Virus record (IMG/VR): IMGVR_UViG_3300047557_001212
Coordinates: 1-33,093 of that record
Length of the DNA stretch: 33,093 nucleotides
Source: a virus
Reading direction: 5' to 3' (one strand)
This document shows, piece by piece, positions 1 to 33,093 of the stretch. Position 1 is the first letter of the stretch, and the number at the start of each line of letters is the position of its first letter. Position numbers and translations under genes: made by a program. A model generated the notes under the pieces. It saw nothing but the letters and a program-made list of their open reading frames with translations. It was not told the DNA's origin and did no database searches.

Positions 1-169
1 ACATAGTATACAAGGCGATCCAAGTGAATGGCTTGCTGTATGTAATATTTTAACTACATACAATTACGATACAGATAAAAATAAAAAACTGACACCAGGT
101 CAAAAACGAAAAAGTTTGTTCTATATCATTAGAGTATGGGACGATCTTGAGATGATGTATTTTTGCTAA
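1..169 (+). CDS. Hypothetical protein, 3' end only
   Basis: An open frame enters from the left edge in the frame beginning at base 2 and stops at TAA 167-169, giving the last 55 residues of a protein. The visible part contains DPSEWLAVCNILTTY and ends LEMMYFC. It is mixed and charged, with no recognisable motif. The next gene starts two bases after the stop, so the two are probably co-transcribed. Other frames across this stretch contain early stops. The start lies outside the window and no function can be given. Confidence 0.55.
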   Translation, partial: HSIQGDPSEWLAVCNILTTYNYDTDKNKKLTPGQKRKSLFYIIRVWDDLEMMYFC

Positions 170-170
170 T

Positions 171-428
171 ATGAGAATATATCTAGAAGTACCTTTTGAA
201 GAAAAGGAACTAGCAAAACAAAAGGGTTGCTGGTGGGATGATCATAAACAAAAATGGTTTATAGAAAATCCAATACATATGACTGAATATGTTCGTTGGA
301 TGCCAAATCGGTTATTAGAACCTACTAAGTCAAAACCATTGAAGCATGAACCATTCGTCAATACTAAAATTAGTAAAGACAGATTGAAACGACTAATTAA
401 GAAGCAGAACAAAAAATTTAGACGCTAA
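171..428 (+). CDS. DUF5710-like small protein
   Basis: An 85-residue protein that starts MRIYLEVPFEEKELAKQKG, followed by CWWDDHKQKWFI. The pattern of a short beta strand, VPF/Y-EEK, AK-x-G, then a tryptophan-rich W-x4-KxW is the hallmark of DUF5710. That small domain is common in phages and plasmids, alone or fused to primases and DNA-processing enzymes. The C-terminal third is very lysine- and arginine-rich, ending KKQNKKFRR, which suggests nucleic-acid contact. The start ATG lies two bases after the previous stop, which suggests translational coupling. The family call is by motif recognition; the molecular role of the family is not established. Confidence 0.7.
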   Translation: MRIYLEVPFEEKELAKQKGCWWDDHKQKWFIENPIHMTEYVRWMPNRLLEPTKSKPLKHEPFVNTKISKDRLKRLIKKQNKKFRR

Positions 429-890
429 ACGCTTGCGCCGCGTAGAAGGCGACCGTAATCCGTTCTGATGTGTGACGGTAAGGTGTGGTGAGTCTAACAC
501 TATAATGTAGACAACGAAAGTTGCCATAAATGATATCACGCCACTCGGCACGACAGTCATTTCTACATCGTAAAGGTTAAATGCGATGCGTCATAGTAAA
601 AAAGGGTAGAGGGCGCATACTAGACATACAGAAGGTCTAACGAATGCTGTATGTTATTAGTGAATACACGAACAGCCAGAAATGGTACTGAGATATAGTC
701 AATCCGCTAGTTTAAATGTTTAGAGTTAGAACCTTCAGCCTCGGGCATGAATTTTGTGCAAAGTGGGTATCTACCCCTTTGCCTGTGCATGATATGAGAT
801 ATAAAATGTGACCTAAAAAGGATGCACGAAACAGAAACGAAAGTTTCTGTGAAGTGCTATGCCTGAGCGAAGCGAACGGCATAAAAGCAC
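429..890 (+). ncRNA. Gene-free, hairpin-rich stretch, candidate structured RNA or leader
   Basis: About 520 bases between genes with no credible ORF but many strong dyads. On the + strand these include CAAC-GAAA-GTTG (512-523, GNRA loop), an 8-bp ACATACAG/CTGTATGT pair (624-631 with 647-654), and GCCA-GAAA-TGGT (675-686, GNRA loop). A long hairpin spans 758-782 (GCAAAG/CTTTGC plus GGGT/ACCC). ACAGAAAC-GAAA-GTTTCTGT (831-850) is a perfect 8-bp stem with a GNRA loop. A two-part stem (852-858 with 886-892, 859-863 with 878-882) ends in the -35 box of the next promoter. Some pairings are mutually exclusive: ATGTAGA 505-511 can pair with 562-568 or take part in a local hairpin. I do not recognise a known RNA class. 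Confidence 0.4.
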
Positions 891-920
891 TTGACAGAAA
901 TTATCATATATAGTATGATA
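891..920 (+). promoter_or_regulatory. Sigma70-type promoter with dyad over the -10
   Basis: TTGACA (891-896), a 17-bp spacer and TATGAT (914-919) form a near-consensus promoter pointing at the glycosyltransferase gene at 949. A perfect inverted repeat, TATCATA-TATAG-TATGATA (902-920), covers the spacer and the -10 box, where a repressor would block polymerase. The upstream hairpin arm AGCACTT (886-892) overlaps the -35. Confidence 0.7.
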
Positions 921-948
921 CTAATAACAAACCAATGGAGCGTAACAA

Positions 949-2010
949 ATGAAAACAATTTATATAGTAGATATCGAACCACTTGACAATAGATATACCA
1001 AGCAATGGCATTATCATATACCAAGGCACATGAAGAAACTACTCAAAGACCATGAGATAGTAAACATAAGTGGAGATACAAGTAATTACAAAGACACCAC
1101 AAATGGTGCTTTCTTTGATTTCAATAAGACATGCGATTACAAAGCAAGCCAAGCACGAAAGATCAGCCAATTATTCATAGATAACAAAGTGAAAAATGGC
1201 GATGTGTTTTTCTTCACAGATGCATGGAATCAGACCATACATACATTGAGATATCTGTGTGAATTGAACGATATAGATATCAAGGTCGTTGGCATATGGC
1301 ATGCAGGTTGGTATGATAAGACCGACATACTTGGCATGAAGATCAAGAATCATGCTTGGGTCAAAAATCATGAGTTGAGCATGTATAACGCATATGATAT
1401 CAATTTCTTTGCCACGAATCATCATCTAGATACATTCATGGCAGAACATAGCGTGGATAGGAAGAAAGCCATGTTGGTTGGTTATCCATTAGATTATCTT
1501 GAAGATATCATACAGCCAAATTACGATGATAAAGAAGATATCGTGGTGTTTCCACATAGATTGAATACTGACAAGGCGCCACATGTATTCGATTGGATAG
1601 CGAAAAAAGTGCAAAGTTATTTTCCAGATATATTGTTCGTCAAGACACAAGAACATAATCTAGACAAAGACGAATATTACAAATTATTGAGCAAATCCAA
1701 AGTGGTGTTCAGTTGTAGCAAACATGAGAATCTAGGCATAGGCACATATGAAGCCGTGAGATTGGGTTGTGTTCCAATCGTGCCGGACAAACTCAGTTAT
1801 AAAGAGATGTATCCAATATCAAATCGTTATCATATGGATGATCCATGGTATGAGAAGGAGAATGTCTGGGTAGATGTCAGCGAACGCATATTGCATATCG
1901 TCAAGACATATGACAAGAACAGATATAACGAGTCATTGAATATCGCCAAACATATCCGTGAGCGTTATTTCAGTGGTGAGCATATGTATCATATCATATC
2001 TAGATTATGA
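949..2010 (+). CDS. GT-B glycosyltransferase (GT4-like)
   Basis: A 353-residue protein with the two-domain layout of GT-B enzymes. The N-terminal half begins with a beta strand (MKTIYIVDIE) and contains FFTDAWN and a GIWHAGWYD loop. The C-terminal half carries the nucleotide-sugar binding segment HENLGIGTYEAVRLGCVPIV at about 259-278, an E-x7-E-like glycosyltransferase family 4 motif. It probably moves a sugar from a nucleotide sugar to an unknown acceptor, such as phage DNA, a virion protein or host glycan. The start is supported by GGAG at 937-940 nine bases upstream and by the strong promoter. The next ORF overlaps its stop by four bases (ATGA). A methyltransferase follows two genes later, suggesting a joint modification pathway. 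The acceptor cannot be read from sequence. Confidence 0.8.
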   Translation: MKTIYIVDIEPLDNRYTKQWHYHIPRHMKKLLKDHEIVNISGDTSNYKDTTNGAFFDFNKTCDYKASQARKISQLFIDNKVKNGDVFFFTDAWNQTIHTLRYLCELNDIDIKVVGIWHAGWYDKTDILGMKIKNHAWVKNHELSMYNAYDINFFATNHHLDTFMAEHSVDRKKAMLVGYPLDYLEDIIQPNYDDKEDIVVFPHRLNTDKAPHVFDWIAKKVQSYFPDILFVKTQEHNLDKDEYYKLLSKSKVVFSCSKHENLGIGTYEAVRLGCVPIVPDKLSYKEMYPISNRYHMDDPWYEKENVWVDVSERILHIVKTYDKNRYNESLNIAKHIRERYFSGEHMYHIISRL

Positions 2011-17315: not shown

Positions 17316-20072
17316 ATGGGTATCTTTAGTAAAATAGGTAAAGCACTTAAGAAAGTCATAGGCGTAGTTGCCGCTGTCGCTGCCGCTGTGTTCATACCAG
17401 GCGCAGGTGCTTTCATAGGTAAAGCATTATTAGGTGCGGCTATAAGCATAGGTGCTAGCAAACTGTTAGCAAAGCGTGGTGCAGATGCCCCTGCAGGTGG
17501 TGATGCTGGTGGTCGTGTGCAAGTACCGCCTGCTACAGAAAACAAACTTCCTGTAGTATATGGTCAAGCATGGATAGGTGGTCCTATCATCGATGCAAAG
17601 ATCAGCCAAGATCAGAAATACATGTGGTACTGTATCGCCTTTGCAGAAAAGACAGATACAGGAACTTATAGTTATGATACCGCCAATGGTGTCTATTACG
17701 ATGGTAAATTAGTAGAATTTGGTAGTAATGGTGTAGTCAATGCATTGGTTACAAACAATGGTGGCTTAGGTACGGCACAGCGTGATACACGCATGGCAGG
17801 CAAGATTTATATCTGGTTGTTTACCGATGGTTCAAGTTCAGGTGTCAACACAGGTGGCCAAAGTGCTATCACTATCATGAGTGATAGCAGTACAGGTGGT
17901 GGTATATTCCCAAGCGATCTGCGTTGGAATGGTTCATTGTACACTAGCAATGGTCAAAGTGCAACCATGACCAACACAGCGTTCGCAATCGTGCGTGTAG
18001 AATATAATCCAGACGCAGGTACTACAGGACTAGGATCATTGCAAGTCAAGTTGACAAACAATATGGGCGCAAGTTATGGCGCAAGGCCCGGTGCTGTGAT
18101 TTTAGACTATATGACTAATGAGCGATATGGATGTGCTATACCTTTCAATCAGATAGATAATAATAGTTTAACCTCATTAAATTTATACAGTAATCAAAGC
18201 ATAGGTTACATTGATGTCAATGGCAATCCACAGACACAGCCATATCGTTATCGCATCAATGGTGTAGTGAATACAGCGGCAACATGCTTGACTAATTTAC
18301 AAACTATGGTCGATAGTTGCGATAGTTGGTTACAATATAGCGAAAGCACAGGTCAATGGCGCGTAGTCATGAACGCACCATATAGCGGTGCAGAATCAAG
18401 TTTATTCTTAGTAGATAGTAATAATCTAATAGGTGGTATACAGATCAATCCTGTAGACTTGAATGAGACATATAATCAAGTAGAAGTCGCATACCCAAAT
18501 AACAATGTCAAAGATCAGACAGATTATCAAGTCATCGATCTGACAAATCCTTCAAATTGGAGCAGTCAAGTCTATGATGATATATTGAGTCCTAATGAAG
18601 CAGTCAATAGATTGAACATCAGTTTACCATTAGTCAATGGTGCTGTGCAAGCGAAATATCTAGCGGCAAGAAGACTGTTACAGAGCCGCGAGGATCTAGT
18701 GATAAGTTTTCAACTTGACTATTCAGGTATACAGATAGAAGCAGGCGATGTCATTCGTGTTGGTCAACCTGACTATGGTTGGGGACCTACGACTGCTAAT
18801 CCTGCGAATCCATATAAATTATTCCGTGTCAGCAATGTAAGCGAACAGACCACTGATGACAATAGTTTAGTCGCTAACATAGAAGCATTTGAATACAATG
18901 CAACAGTCTATGCTGACAATGCTATCACAGATTTCATACCTGCTGACAATACAGGATTGACTGATCCTAATGTGATCAGCCAACCATGTCCACCTACTAT
19001 CACTAATTTCACAGATGCTAATGCTACTGTCACAGGTTTTGAAGTCACTTCATGCGTGCCTGATACTGGTACTGTGTTATATATGGATTTCAATTATGGT
19101 AACAATAGCAATGTCCAACAACATCAATTATATCGCACAGTACAAAGCGCAGGTGGCATACCATTCACAAATAGTGATAGCGCAAATGCTGTTTATAATA
19201 ATGTATCTATAACTGTAAACGATTTACCTAGCGCAAATTATTATTGGAGTGCCACAGCAAGAAACGACACATCAGGTCGCTATAGCAATGTAAGCAATGT
19301 GATAGCATGGGGTGGTGCGAATATACAACCTTATAATCCTATCAGCAATACAGGTGGTATAGCAGGTGGACAGATTAAAAATAATACGATTGTAAACAAT
19401 AATATTGTAAATTATACAATACAAGGTAGTAAAGTAGCAAATAATACTTTAGAATTGAATAATTTTAGTGCTAATTTAACTATTAGTGAACTAACTGATT
19501 CTATAACATTTGGTGTTCTAGGCAATGATCCTCCAATTGCACCTATCAATGTAACGGCAAGAACATCCTATGATGTACCTTTTTATATCATAGGAACTAA
19601 CCCAGGTACAAATTATTACACACCATTTTATCAAGGTACAAGTACTACTGCCAATGGATATTATGATAATAGTTCTGGATCCTTTAATCCTTATGGTGCA
19701 GGTTTATGGGAAAGAGCAGATGGAGATTGGAATTGGTATGTCATTACCGCATTTAATTTAACTACACCGATATCTCCTCCTTTTGGTGTACAATATAGAG
19801 CATCAATAATTATGGTATCGAATGTCGATGCCAATGTTCAATTGGCAAGCGGCTCTGGTAATAATTCACTTAGTTTTGGCTATGTATCATCTGATGATTT
19901 GATAACAACAGTTAATTTAAAAGCAAATCAAGCATATAGATTTGAAACAACAGCGACAGGTTTTCCTAATGGTACTGTAGATTATGCAGGTTATTTGATG
20001 AGAAATATGACTACAGGAGCAAATGTAGTTGTTTATGCTGTACAATTTGCTATATGCAAATCTTATCTATAA
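17316..20072 (+). CDS. Central tail-tip protein (lambda J-like host-specificity protein)
   Basis: A 918-residue protein. The N-terminus has a basic amphipathic and hydrophobic stretch (GKALKKVIGVVAAVAAAVFI) and then NKLPVVYGQAWIGGPIIDAK, the typical opening of phage J-like hub proteins. The middle includes DETYNQVEV-like hub text (LNETYNQVEVAYPNN) and EAGDVIRVGQPDYGWGPT-like beta domains. An fn3-like region lies at about 560-665. From about 685 the sequence becomes Asn/Thr-rich and more AT-rich, with NNTIVNNNIVNYTIQGSKVA, a region that often binds receptor or fibres and swaps between phages. It should form the tail tip and take part in host recognition. Confidence 0.82.
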   Translation: MGIFSKIGKALKKVIGVVAAVAAAVFIPGAGAFIGKALLGAAISIGASKLLAKRGADAPAGGDAGGRVQVPPATENKLPVVYGQAWIGGPIIDAKISQDQKYMWYCIAFAEKTDTGTYSYDTANGVYYDGKLVEFGSNGVVNALVTNNGGLGTAQRDTRMAGKIYIWLFTDGSSSGVNTGGQSAITIMSDSSTGGGIFPSDLRWNGSLYTSNGQSATMTNTAFAIVRVEYNPDAGTTGLGSLQVKLTNNMGASYGARPGAVILDYMTNERYGCAIPFNQIDNNSLTSLNLYSNQSIGYIDVNGNPQTQPYRYRINGVVNTAATCLTNLQTMVDSCDSWLQYSESTGQWRVVMNAPYSGAESSLFLVDSNNLIGGIQINPVDLNETYNQVEVAYPNNNVKDQTDYQVIDLTNPSNWSSQVYDDILSPNEAVNRLNISLPLVNGAVQAKYLAARRLLQSREDLVISFQLDYSGIQIEAGDVIRVGQPDYGWGPTTANPANPYKLFRVSNVSEQTTDDNSLVANIEAFEYNATVYADNAITDFIPADNTGLTDPNVISQPCPPTITNFTDANATVTGFEVTSCVPDTGTVLYMDFNYGNNSNVQQHQLYRTVQSAGGIPFTNSDSANAVYNNVSITVNDLPSANYYWSATARNDTSGRYSNVSNVIAWGGANIQPYNPISNTGGIAGGQIKNNTIVNNNIVNYTIQGSKVANNTLELNNFSANLTISELTDSITFGVLGNDPPIAPINVTARTSYDVPFYIIGTNPGTNYYTPFYQGTSTTANGYYDNSSGSFNPYGAGLWERADGDWNWYVITAFNLTTPISPPFGVQYRASIIMVSNVDANVQLASGSGNNSLSFGYVSSDDLITTVNLKANQAYRFETTATGFPNGTVDYAGYLMRNMTTGANVVVYAVQFAICKSYL

Positions 20073-32263: not shown

Positions 32264-32632
32264 ATGGCTAAATTAGATAGATTAGTAAATGGCATCATCA
32301 TTGCCAGTGACAAGCATGGTCGCAACAAAGTTAGATTTTGCGACAATGTGAAGTTACGCACATACTTGTTAATAAAGCAAGGCTTCACTATACATGACAT
32401 AGTGACAAGTCCAGAACCTGTTTCTAGGACACAGATGTTGAAATTGGCATTAGATCATGAGTTCGATCATGACGATAGCGAACATCTTGTCAAGAACTTG
32501 TTGTTCAAGTATGATCAAAAAGTATTAGATGAACATCTCAAGCAAGACTTGTTGCGTGAGATCGCAAATCGTCCACGCCGTGATACAGATATCACAGCAC
32601 AAGAATTGGATAATGTATTGAAACAATTATGA
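32264..32632 (+). CDS. Hypothetical protein under a strong regulated promoter
   Basis: A 122-residue protein with ATGGAG upstream of ATG 32264. It starts MAKLDRLVNGIIIASDKHGR and continues with NKVRFCDNVKLRTYLLIKQG. The second half is helical and charged (DHEFDHDDSEHLVKNLLFKY, QDLLREIANRPRRDTDI). The basic central part could bind nucleic acid. It is coupled to the next gene by ATGA. Its promoter is the closest to consensus in the window, so early and strong expression is likely when not repressed. No family recognised. Confidence 0.65.
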   Translation: MAKLDRLVNGIIIASDKHGRNKVRFCDNVKLRTYLLIKQGFTIHDIVTSPEPVSRTQMLKLALDHEFDHDDSEHLVKNLLFKYDQKVLDEHLKQDLLREIANRPRRDTDITAQELDNVLKQL

Positions 32633-32841
32633 CGATATTGACAACCATAGAAAAATCCATTCTTGACGATCATTTTGTCAAGAATGGATTAAGTCCTAAC
32701 AAAGCAAATTTCATACTTGCTGTTAGCAATATCATGCCAGAGTTCCGTGTCGTTGAGATACTAGGCGAAAGTAATTATATCAGCATGGAACCTTGCGTTG
32801 CATACGAACAGTACATAGAAGAAATTTTGCGTGGCGAATAA
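32629..32841 (+). CDS. Small hypothetical protein
   Basis: A 70-residue protein overlapping the previous stop by four bases. It reads MTILTTIEKSILDDHFVKNG, then a short hydrophobic strand region (FRVVEILGESNYISME) and an acidic end (YEQYIEEILRGE). Probably a small alpha/beta protein, co-translated with the gene before it. No family recognised. Confidence 0.6.
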   Translation: MTILTTIEKSILDDHFVKNGLSPNKANFILAVSNIMPEFRVVEILGESNYISMEPCVAYEQYIEEILRGE

Positions 32842-32886
32842 CTAACATAAATAACTATGCTTTCTAAGAGAAGCAAATTAGTCAAT

Positions 32887-32948
32887 ATGACGCTCCAGCC
32901 CCATGTGTTTAGCGCACATGGGGCATCTCGCTAAAAGATGAGTGTCAT
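32887..32948 (+). ncRNA. Three-way-junction RNA with complementary 7-nt loops (riboswitch-like leader)
   Basis: P1 ATGACGCTC/GAGTGTCAT (32887-32895 with 32940-32948, one G-U) encloses P2 GCCCCATGTG/CACATGGGGC (32898-32907 with 32915-32924) and P3 ATCT/AGAT (32925-32928 with 32936-32939). Only two bases (32896-32897) are unpaired at the junction. The P2 loop TTTAGCG (32908-32914) is the exact reverse complement of the P3 loop CGCTAAA (32929-32935). They can form a seven-base kissing interaction, or an alternative hairpin that would replace P2 and P3. P1 ends just before AGGAG (32951-32955), the ribosome site of the gene at 32963. I do not recognise the class. Confidence 0.75.
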
Positions 32949-32962
32949 ACAGGAGCGAACAA

Positions 32963-33093
32963 ATGAACGAGATAAGTTTCAGAGAAAAAATCGTAGCACT
33001 TCAACATGAATGGCTAAAAGATCCATACAATGACAAAAGATCAAATGATTTTTGGTATGTCATGGACAGTATCAATGATGAACTCATCATAAG
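32963..33093 (+). CDS. Hypothetical protein, N-terminal part only
   Basis: ATG 32963 with AGGAG seven bases upstream opens a frame that runs off the window after 43 codons. It begins MNEISFREKIVALQHEWLKD, a charged helical start. The structured RNA at 32887-32948 is its leader and may control it. Identity of the complete gene cannot be judged. Confidence 0.6.
   Translation, partial: MNEISFREKIVALQHEWLKDPYNDKRSNDFWYVMDSINDELII

Follow-up and report, generated by a model that had tools for sequence, protein, structure and literature searches.

A three-way-junction leader RNA with two mutually complementary loops, probably a bistable translational switch, in an uncultivated phage clade

The window, a stretch of 33,093 nucleotides, is the 33-kb virus record IMGVR_UViG_3300047557_001212 of IMG/VR, in which a large terminase, a portal and a tape-measure protein are encoded. 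The 62 bases from 32887 to 32948 fold into a three-way junction with P1 of 9 bp, P2 of 10 bp, P3 of 4 bp and two 7-nt loops (Table 1). The predicted minimum free energy structure was this same junction (-31.3 kcal/mol, z = -6.1), to which RNAfold adds one pair closing loop L2, a small difference, and none of 200 shuffled sequences was equally stable. Both the coordinates and the stem lengths proposed in an earlier sequence-only reading of the window were exact, and so was its observation that the loops TTTAGCG and CGCTAAA are perfect reverse complements. The P2 hairpin is the second-longest perfect short-loop hairpin of the window, tied with a hairpin at 17864. As that reading had also noted, the leader lies directly before the ribosome site of the next gene, whose ATG stands just 3' of the Shine-Dalgarno (SD) sequence AGGAG.

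Table 1. Features of the leader and its surroundings in the window
Feature	Position	Strand	Basis or remark
ATAAATA promoter-like box (T4-late-like -10)	32847..32853	+	about 35 nt upstream of P1
5' hairpin HP1 (TGCTTT-CTAAGA-GAAGCA)	32858..32875	+	predicted fold; probably 5' end of transcript
P1 5' strand	32887..32895	+	fold; covariation (84.8% of P1 cells paired, two-sided changes at 6/6 scored pairs)
Anti-Shine-Dalgarno CGCTCC	32891..32896	+	overlaps P1 5' strand; pairs with GGAGCG at 32952-32957
P2 hairpin, 10 bp	32898..32924 (32898-32907 / 32915-32924)	+	fold; covariation in homologues
Loop L2 TTTAGCG	32908..32914	+	exact reverse complement of L3
P3 hairpin, 4 bp	32925..32939 (32925-32928 / 32936-32939)	+	fold; covariation in homologues
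Loop L3 CGCTAAA	32929..32935	+	exact reverse complement of L2
P1 3' strand	32940..32948	+	alternative to the real SD as partner of the anti-SD strand
Shine-Dalgarno AGGAG (32951-32955), extension GGAGCG	32951..32957	+	sequence; anti-SD target, cognate pairing in 39 leaders
First late-module gene, start	32963..33093	+	about 100 aa without a known domain; truncated at contig end

No described RNA family in Rfam 15 was matched: there was no match at the gathering score for the whole window, none at E <= 5 for 32800-33093, and none at E <= 0.05 in 20 loci, mostly 3-kb stretches around homologues. A published description of the class was not found in the literature searched, which mostly did not cover subscription journals. 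The impression of the sequence-only reading that no described class fits the element was in agreement with the Rfam results.

The relatives of the element were searched for through the terminase. The best terminase matches in cultured phages (50,697 phage records) were below 30% identity, so there is no close cultured relative, and scanning bacterial and archaeal genomes for the terminase returned no relative. Another terminase scan yielded 78 related contigs, in which the covariance model R1, made from the single sequence, gave three full-length matches, each located 4-5 kb upstream of the terminase. In five more contigs the leader of the first gene was inspected without a loop criterion, and the same architecture was seen with other loops. 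The set was enlarged by further scans and by whole-record searches with a covariance model R2 to a total of 40 distinct elements, namely 33 and then L137, L256, L258, L262, L265, L270 and L272. All of them come from one uncultivated phage clade, and the terminase, where it lies on the contig, is of the same family; with 40 distinct relatives in that clade, the window element is not a chance structure. The elements share a position 5' of the first gene and about 4-7.5 kb before the terminase, whatever that gene is, and they are nearly always preceded by an [A/C]TAAATA box and a 5' hairpin and followed by a long co-directional module. Two exceptions were seen. Directly behind the leader of L243 lies noncoding sequence and not a gene, and in L009 (3438-3530) P2 is a terminator-like hairpin, GCCCCATAAAA-TTTAGCG-TTTTATGGGGTTTTTTT, in which the loop TTTAGCG is kept and L3 is missing. 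Six further candidates, L134:5452, L153:6851, L173:5787, L040, L146:3992 and L255, proved to be chance matches or HP1 and were rejected.

A pattern search directed at one loop subtype recovered 14 real elements among 18 matches in viral contigs, whereas the 9 matches that it gave in bacterial and archaeal genomes (257 Gb searched) all lacked the stems, and the element therefore appears to be phage-restricted as far as sequence patterns can tell. DNA-level searches of the related records and of cultured phages gave no match, which indicated that the element is not conserved as sequence. No relatives were found for the protein encoded just upstream of it.

Given that alignment of whole elements with MAFFT misaligned P1 and P3, the covariation alignment was built from the paired segments, each of fixed length and gap-free, of 33 elements. 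In this alignment 95.2% of the cells were paired, compared with 56.5% after shuffling, and the covariation score was 1.02 against 0.24 for shuffled alignments (0 of 500 reached it) and 0.14-0.20 for slid structures. Two-sided changes were found at all 19 scored pairs, including all 6 loop-loop pairs, one position of which shows the types UA, CG, GC and AU. A total of 15 different loop hexamers occurred among the 33 elements, including TTAGCG, TTGACG, TTTGCG, TTGGCG, CTGACA, CTGACG, TGATAG, GTGGTA, ATTGCA and TGGTAG, and each was complementary to its partner loop. The element sequences are related, being of one clade, yet the loop families have changed many times. In the comparison of homologues, which the sequence-only reading had named as its own test, both the stems and the loop complementarity were kept by paired changes.

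Part of this set was gathered by requiring loop complementarity, and the unbiased subsets are smaller. The matches of R2, a model without a loop-loop term, that lie outside its training set had fully complementary loops in all cases, and several carried new loop sequences (CTGATAG, TTGGCG). A loop-blind search after TAAATA boxes yielded 17 three-way junctions, 14 of which were judged genuine; the loops of these were complementary over at least 5 nt in 14/14. Complementarity of at least 6 nt was reached in 11 of the 17, while re-pairing the loops between elements gave a mean of 1.7 such junctions and a maximum of 6 in 2000 trials. Random positions and re-paired loops were used as controls, since hairpins survive reversal and reversed or complemented sequence is unsuitable. 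The loop match, earlier rated as beyond chance from the window only, was upheld by the R1 homologues at the same genomic place and by the loop-blind counts. These comparisons supported that the loop complementarity is selected, the loops changing in pairs across homologues.

The strand between HP1 and P2 usually holds CTCCTA or a similar motif; it is the 5' strand of P1 and can also pair with the SD. In the window the anti-SD:SD helix was calculated at -12.1 kcal/mol and P1 at -14.3 kcal/mol, with 5 nt common to both. Among 39 leaders, whose start codons were assigned by rule with L119 and L076 corrected, 38 have the two helices overlapping on the 5' strand by 4 nt or more, 8 nt on average; the exception is L173, in which the two best helices do not overlap. 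Cognate P1 averaged -11.7 kcal/mol over the 39 leaders compared with -6.3 +/- 0.4 after swapping (best of 10,000 permutations -7.8), and the cognate anti-SD:SD helix -12.3 kcal/mol compared with -7.8 +/- 0.3 (best of 10,000 permutations -9.3). With each helix forbidden in turn, the two secondary structures, designated ON (P1 formed) and OFF (SD paired), differed by 0.8 +/- 2.1 kcal/mol, and 26 of 32 were within 3 kcal/mol; these energies are those of secondary structure and do not count the loop-loop contact, a pseudoknot. In some homologues the 3' strand of P1 is a direct repeat of the ribosome-binding region. Thus GATTGAGAA occurs twice in L027, as the P1 3' strand and then over the ribosome site, and ATTTCAGA in L169 and ACAAATA in L077 each occur both in the P1 3' strand and in the ribosome-binding region. 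The alternative pairings can be read directly in others: ATCCTAATAGT of L114 pairs with ACTATAGGAT or with ACTATTAGGAG, in L010 either ACCTCC pairs with GGGGGT or ACCTCCTA with TAGGAGGT, and in the window either ATGACGCTC pairs with GAGTGTCAT or CGCTCC with GGAGCG.

An SD-sequestering translational switch is recognized by a helix that hides the SD and excludes the other fold, and such a helix, specific to each leader, was found across the 39 leaders, together with two predicted states of comparable stability when the kissing is kept outside the energies. When one strand retains two equally strong partners despite so much sequence turnover, it looks like a selected bistable switch. Translational control, which the sequence-only reading had considered plausible, is very plausible. 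Its two-state switch, in which the loop pairing replaces P2 and P3, was abandoned because both stems are present in all accepted homologues; the predicted switch lies between P1 and the anti-SD:SD helix, which had escaped that reading.

TAAATA stands before every listed homologue, the full box being [A/C]TAAATA and often TATAAATA, a type that resembles T4 late promoters. TAAATA was a criterion in some of the searches and not in the covariance-model searches, whose strong matches also have it. Judged from their sequence, the [A/C]TAAATA boxes are likely phage middle or late promoters. Further boxes of this kind lie on the + strand at window positions 2454, 3163, 6535, 6996, 12633, 20269, 23573 and 28335, most of them just before a gene start, and WTAAATA is rarer in the window than expected by chance (8 versus 24.8). 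A predicted hairpin follows the box after 1-6 nt in 33 of the 33 elements folded. By eye, HP1 loops recur (UAAGAG, UUUUAGAACUU, GAGACA) on varying stems, and HP1 could be a protein site or a stabiliser of the 5' end.

The first gene behind the leader is cut at 33093. A full-length relative (L027:512-826) resembles 32963-33093 in its N-terminus and the frame at window 1-169 in its C-terminal part, so that the cut gene apparently continues at 1-169. The R1 matches, all 4-5 kb upstream of the terminase, likewise suggest that the window record is circularly permuted, 33093 joining 1. The first gene is not conserved among the phages. Most commonly it is gene X (about 250 aa), for whose predicted fold no structural relative was found; in other phages it encodes a DUF5710 protein, a small protein, or a product of about 550 aa whose predicted fold is family-A polymerase-like. 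Even in L004, whose terminase is 96% identical to that of the window, the first gene and P2 are different. This variation indicates that the leader is a module of the operon head and not of one gene. A very diverged protein is encoded by the first or second gene behind the leader in L035:2230-4047, L119:2733-4355, L173, L137, L258, L203 and L114; it carries the motifs YDLNAAVYA, AITAIGFGA and RVHDSF, its predicted model, of low confidence, resembles POLRMT and family-A DNA polymerases, and from this model it could be a phage DNA or RNA polymerase.

The geometry of the element was nearly constant while its sequence was free. The mean lengths were 10.9 +/- 0.7 for P2, 4.4 +/- 0.8 for P3 and 6.8 for the loop-loop helix; P3 ranged from 4 to 5 bp and the loop helix from 6 to 9 across the elements, and the P2 arms were 10-12 nt long in nearly all of them, even where a bulge or UU:UU internal loop interrupts the helix (L104, L175). 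P3 plus the loop helix minus P2 amounted to 0.3 +/- 1.0 bp. A loop helix stacked on P3 would thus be as long as P2, so that two parallel columns and kissing in cis are conceivable. The sequence-only reading had considered the kissing geometry uncertain because the arms are unequal; the concern is valid, but it is softer than it looks, given this equality of length. The sum of P2, the loop helix and P3 was 22.2 +/- 0.8 bp, or two helical turns, which makes kissing in trans a conceivable alternative to kissing in cis. Since P2 and P3 are present in both states, the loop-loop contact may form in both.

Taken together, the element probably belongs to a family of phage leader RNAs, so far undescribed, that work as bistable translational switches, as judged by sequence comparison. 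The transcript would start near HP1 from a TAAATA-type phage promoter. When the anti-SD strand pairs as the P1 5' strand with the P1 3' strand, a compact three-way junction would be closed with the loops of P2 and P3 paired, the SD would be accessible and translation of the late module's first gene would proceed (ON); when the same strand pairs with the SD, the ribosome site would be hidden (OFF). The two folds would be tuned to nearly equal energy. By holding P2 and P3 together, the loop-loop contact would keep the two P1 strands close to each other, favour the nearby P1 partner and bias the leader to ON. Because the junction is transcribed ahead of the SD, new transcripts should begin in the ON fold. 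Making or breaking of the loop contact by a protein, ions, a second RNA or folding during transcription would then set translation, and RNA-RNA kissing in trans or plain folding kinetics are also candidates for shifting the balance. It is possible, albeit on a tentative footing, that the switch reads geometry only: no base would be required as such, the loops would have to match each other, one strand would have to match both of its two partners, and the loop-loop contact itself would be the sensor. Under trans kissing, for example, the concentration of late mRNA would set late translation, or a phage protein reading the kissing helix would do so. A control mode of this kind, if true, would be one not known to have been described for leader RNAs.

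The closest system in function is the add adenine riboswitch, of which the phage element is not a member. In that riboswitch a stable P1 releases the SD and a collapsed P1 sequesters it, and the L2-L3 kissing is formed before ligand binding (PMC9588036). The likeness to the add/purine class (RF00167) consists of a three-way junction of P1, P2 and P3, an L2-L3 pairing, supported here by covariation, and release of the SD by P1 formation, predicted for the phage element, and this shared layout would be expected if the junction bound a small molecule that stabilises P1. To our knowledge, a ligand pocket goes with the three-way junctions with kissing loops described so far. However, P2 and P3 are about 7 bp each in purine riboswitches, whereas those of the phage element are 11 bp and 4-5 bp. 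The phage junction is nearly without unpaired bases and has no conserved multi-nucleotide ligand pocket: J12 has 1-4 variable nt, J23 0-1 nt and J31 0-3 nt, none of them invariant, and an A beside P2 in J12 is a preference only. A small-molecule pocket is unlikely given that no unpaired base is invariant. The loops are fully paired and free in sequence, the RF00167 model was not matched, nor was any other Rfam family, and the first genes are mutually unrelated and without a metabolic theme. A metabolite riboswitch is for these reasons very improbable.

Very improbable, too, is a structural RNA that multimerises by loop kissing in trans and is an mRNA leader only incidentally. The model for it is phi29 pRNA, in which a three-way junction carries two hairpin loops that complement each other and are free in sequence provided they match, a description that fits the phage leader equally well. 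Loops of 6-9 nt that are almost fully paired favour end-to-end kissing, a sum of 22.2 +/- 0.8 bp corresponds to two A-form turns and suits rings or filaments, and the element is located in that half of the genome which holds the packaging genes. It differs from pRNA in being an mRNA leader with an anti-SD strand, in the loop helix of 6-9 bp, and in sizes and strand layout. The element forms part of an mRNA, where a conserved cognate anti-SD:SD helix is found that would be of no use to a structural RNA. In nearly every homologue it runs on into the ribosome-binding site of the gene, and no terminator separates P1 from the SD. The ColE1 RNAI/RNAII kissing invoked by the sequence-only reading holds as far as two 7-nt loops that pair are concerned, the 6-7-nt loops pairing almost completely in both systems; it fails in that the phage element has both loops in one short RNA, with no antisense partner and no plasmid origin. 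Homo-oligomeric RNA complexes have been reported for the phage RNAs GOLLD and ROOL (PMC12286853). These are also phage-borne, but they are large, whereas the phage leader is about 60 nt long and without an Rfam match.

A still smaller chance is given to a transcriptional element heading the late operon, either a put-like antitermination site or a pause site, with a secondary anti-SD helix. The put RNAs of HK022 are short phage RNAs directly 3' of a promoter at the operon head and act on RNA polymerase, and the phage leader is likewise short, stands directly 3' of a promoter-like box at an operon head and is independent of the following gene; L243 keeps the leader without a gene, and L009 has a terminator-like hairpin in its place. 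Against this, put has no anti-SD switch, the cognate anti-SD:SD covariation and the balanced energies would be left unexplained, and there is no conserved unpaired sequence for contact with RNA polymerase. A site acting at the level of DNA (cruciform, packaging or replication origin), suggested by palindromic arms near the packaging module, is hardly credible, since G-U pairs are used, the orientation follows the late genes, and a competing SD helix with loop-loop pairing is sensible only in RNA.

Very few phage leader RNAs are known in which a two-state anatomy can be demonstrated. The 40 natural variants of the probable switch share only geometry (P2 of about 11 bp, P3 of 4-5 bp, loop helix of 6-9 bp) and a balanced competition for the SD, and their loops, changing in step, form a natural set of compensatory mutants for loop kissing. 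The pieces of the element are of a size that suits reporters, probing and structural studies, and the family would show how an uncultured group of small phages times its late genes.

Two other regions of the window were also recorded. A perfect 14-bp hairpin, AATCCATTCTTGAC / GTCAAGAATGGATT, lies at 32654-32690 in the 5' portion of the gene that begins at 32629. Window 426-950 (about 500 nt) lacks a good reading frame, has no Rfam match and is possibly a separate large structured RNA; parts of it are 72-82% identical in L010, L006, L243/L244, L097, L124, L125 and L127. Rfam RF02939 (COG2908 RNA, listed as Cis-reg) was found above its gathering score at L243:15827-15871 and L006:1006-1050.
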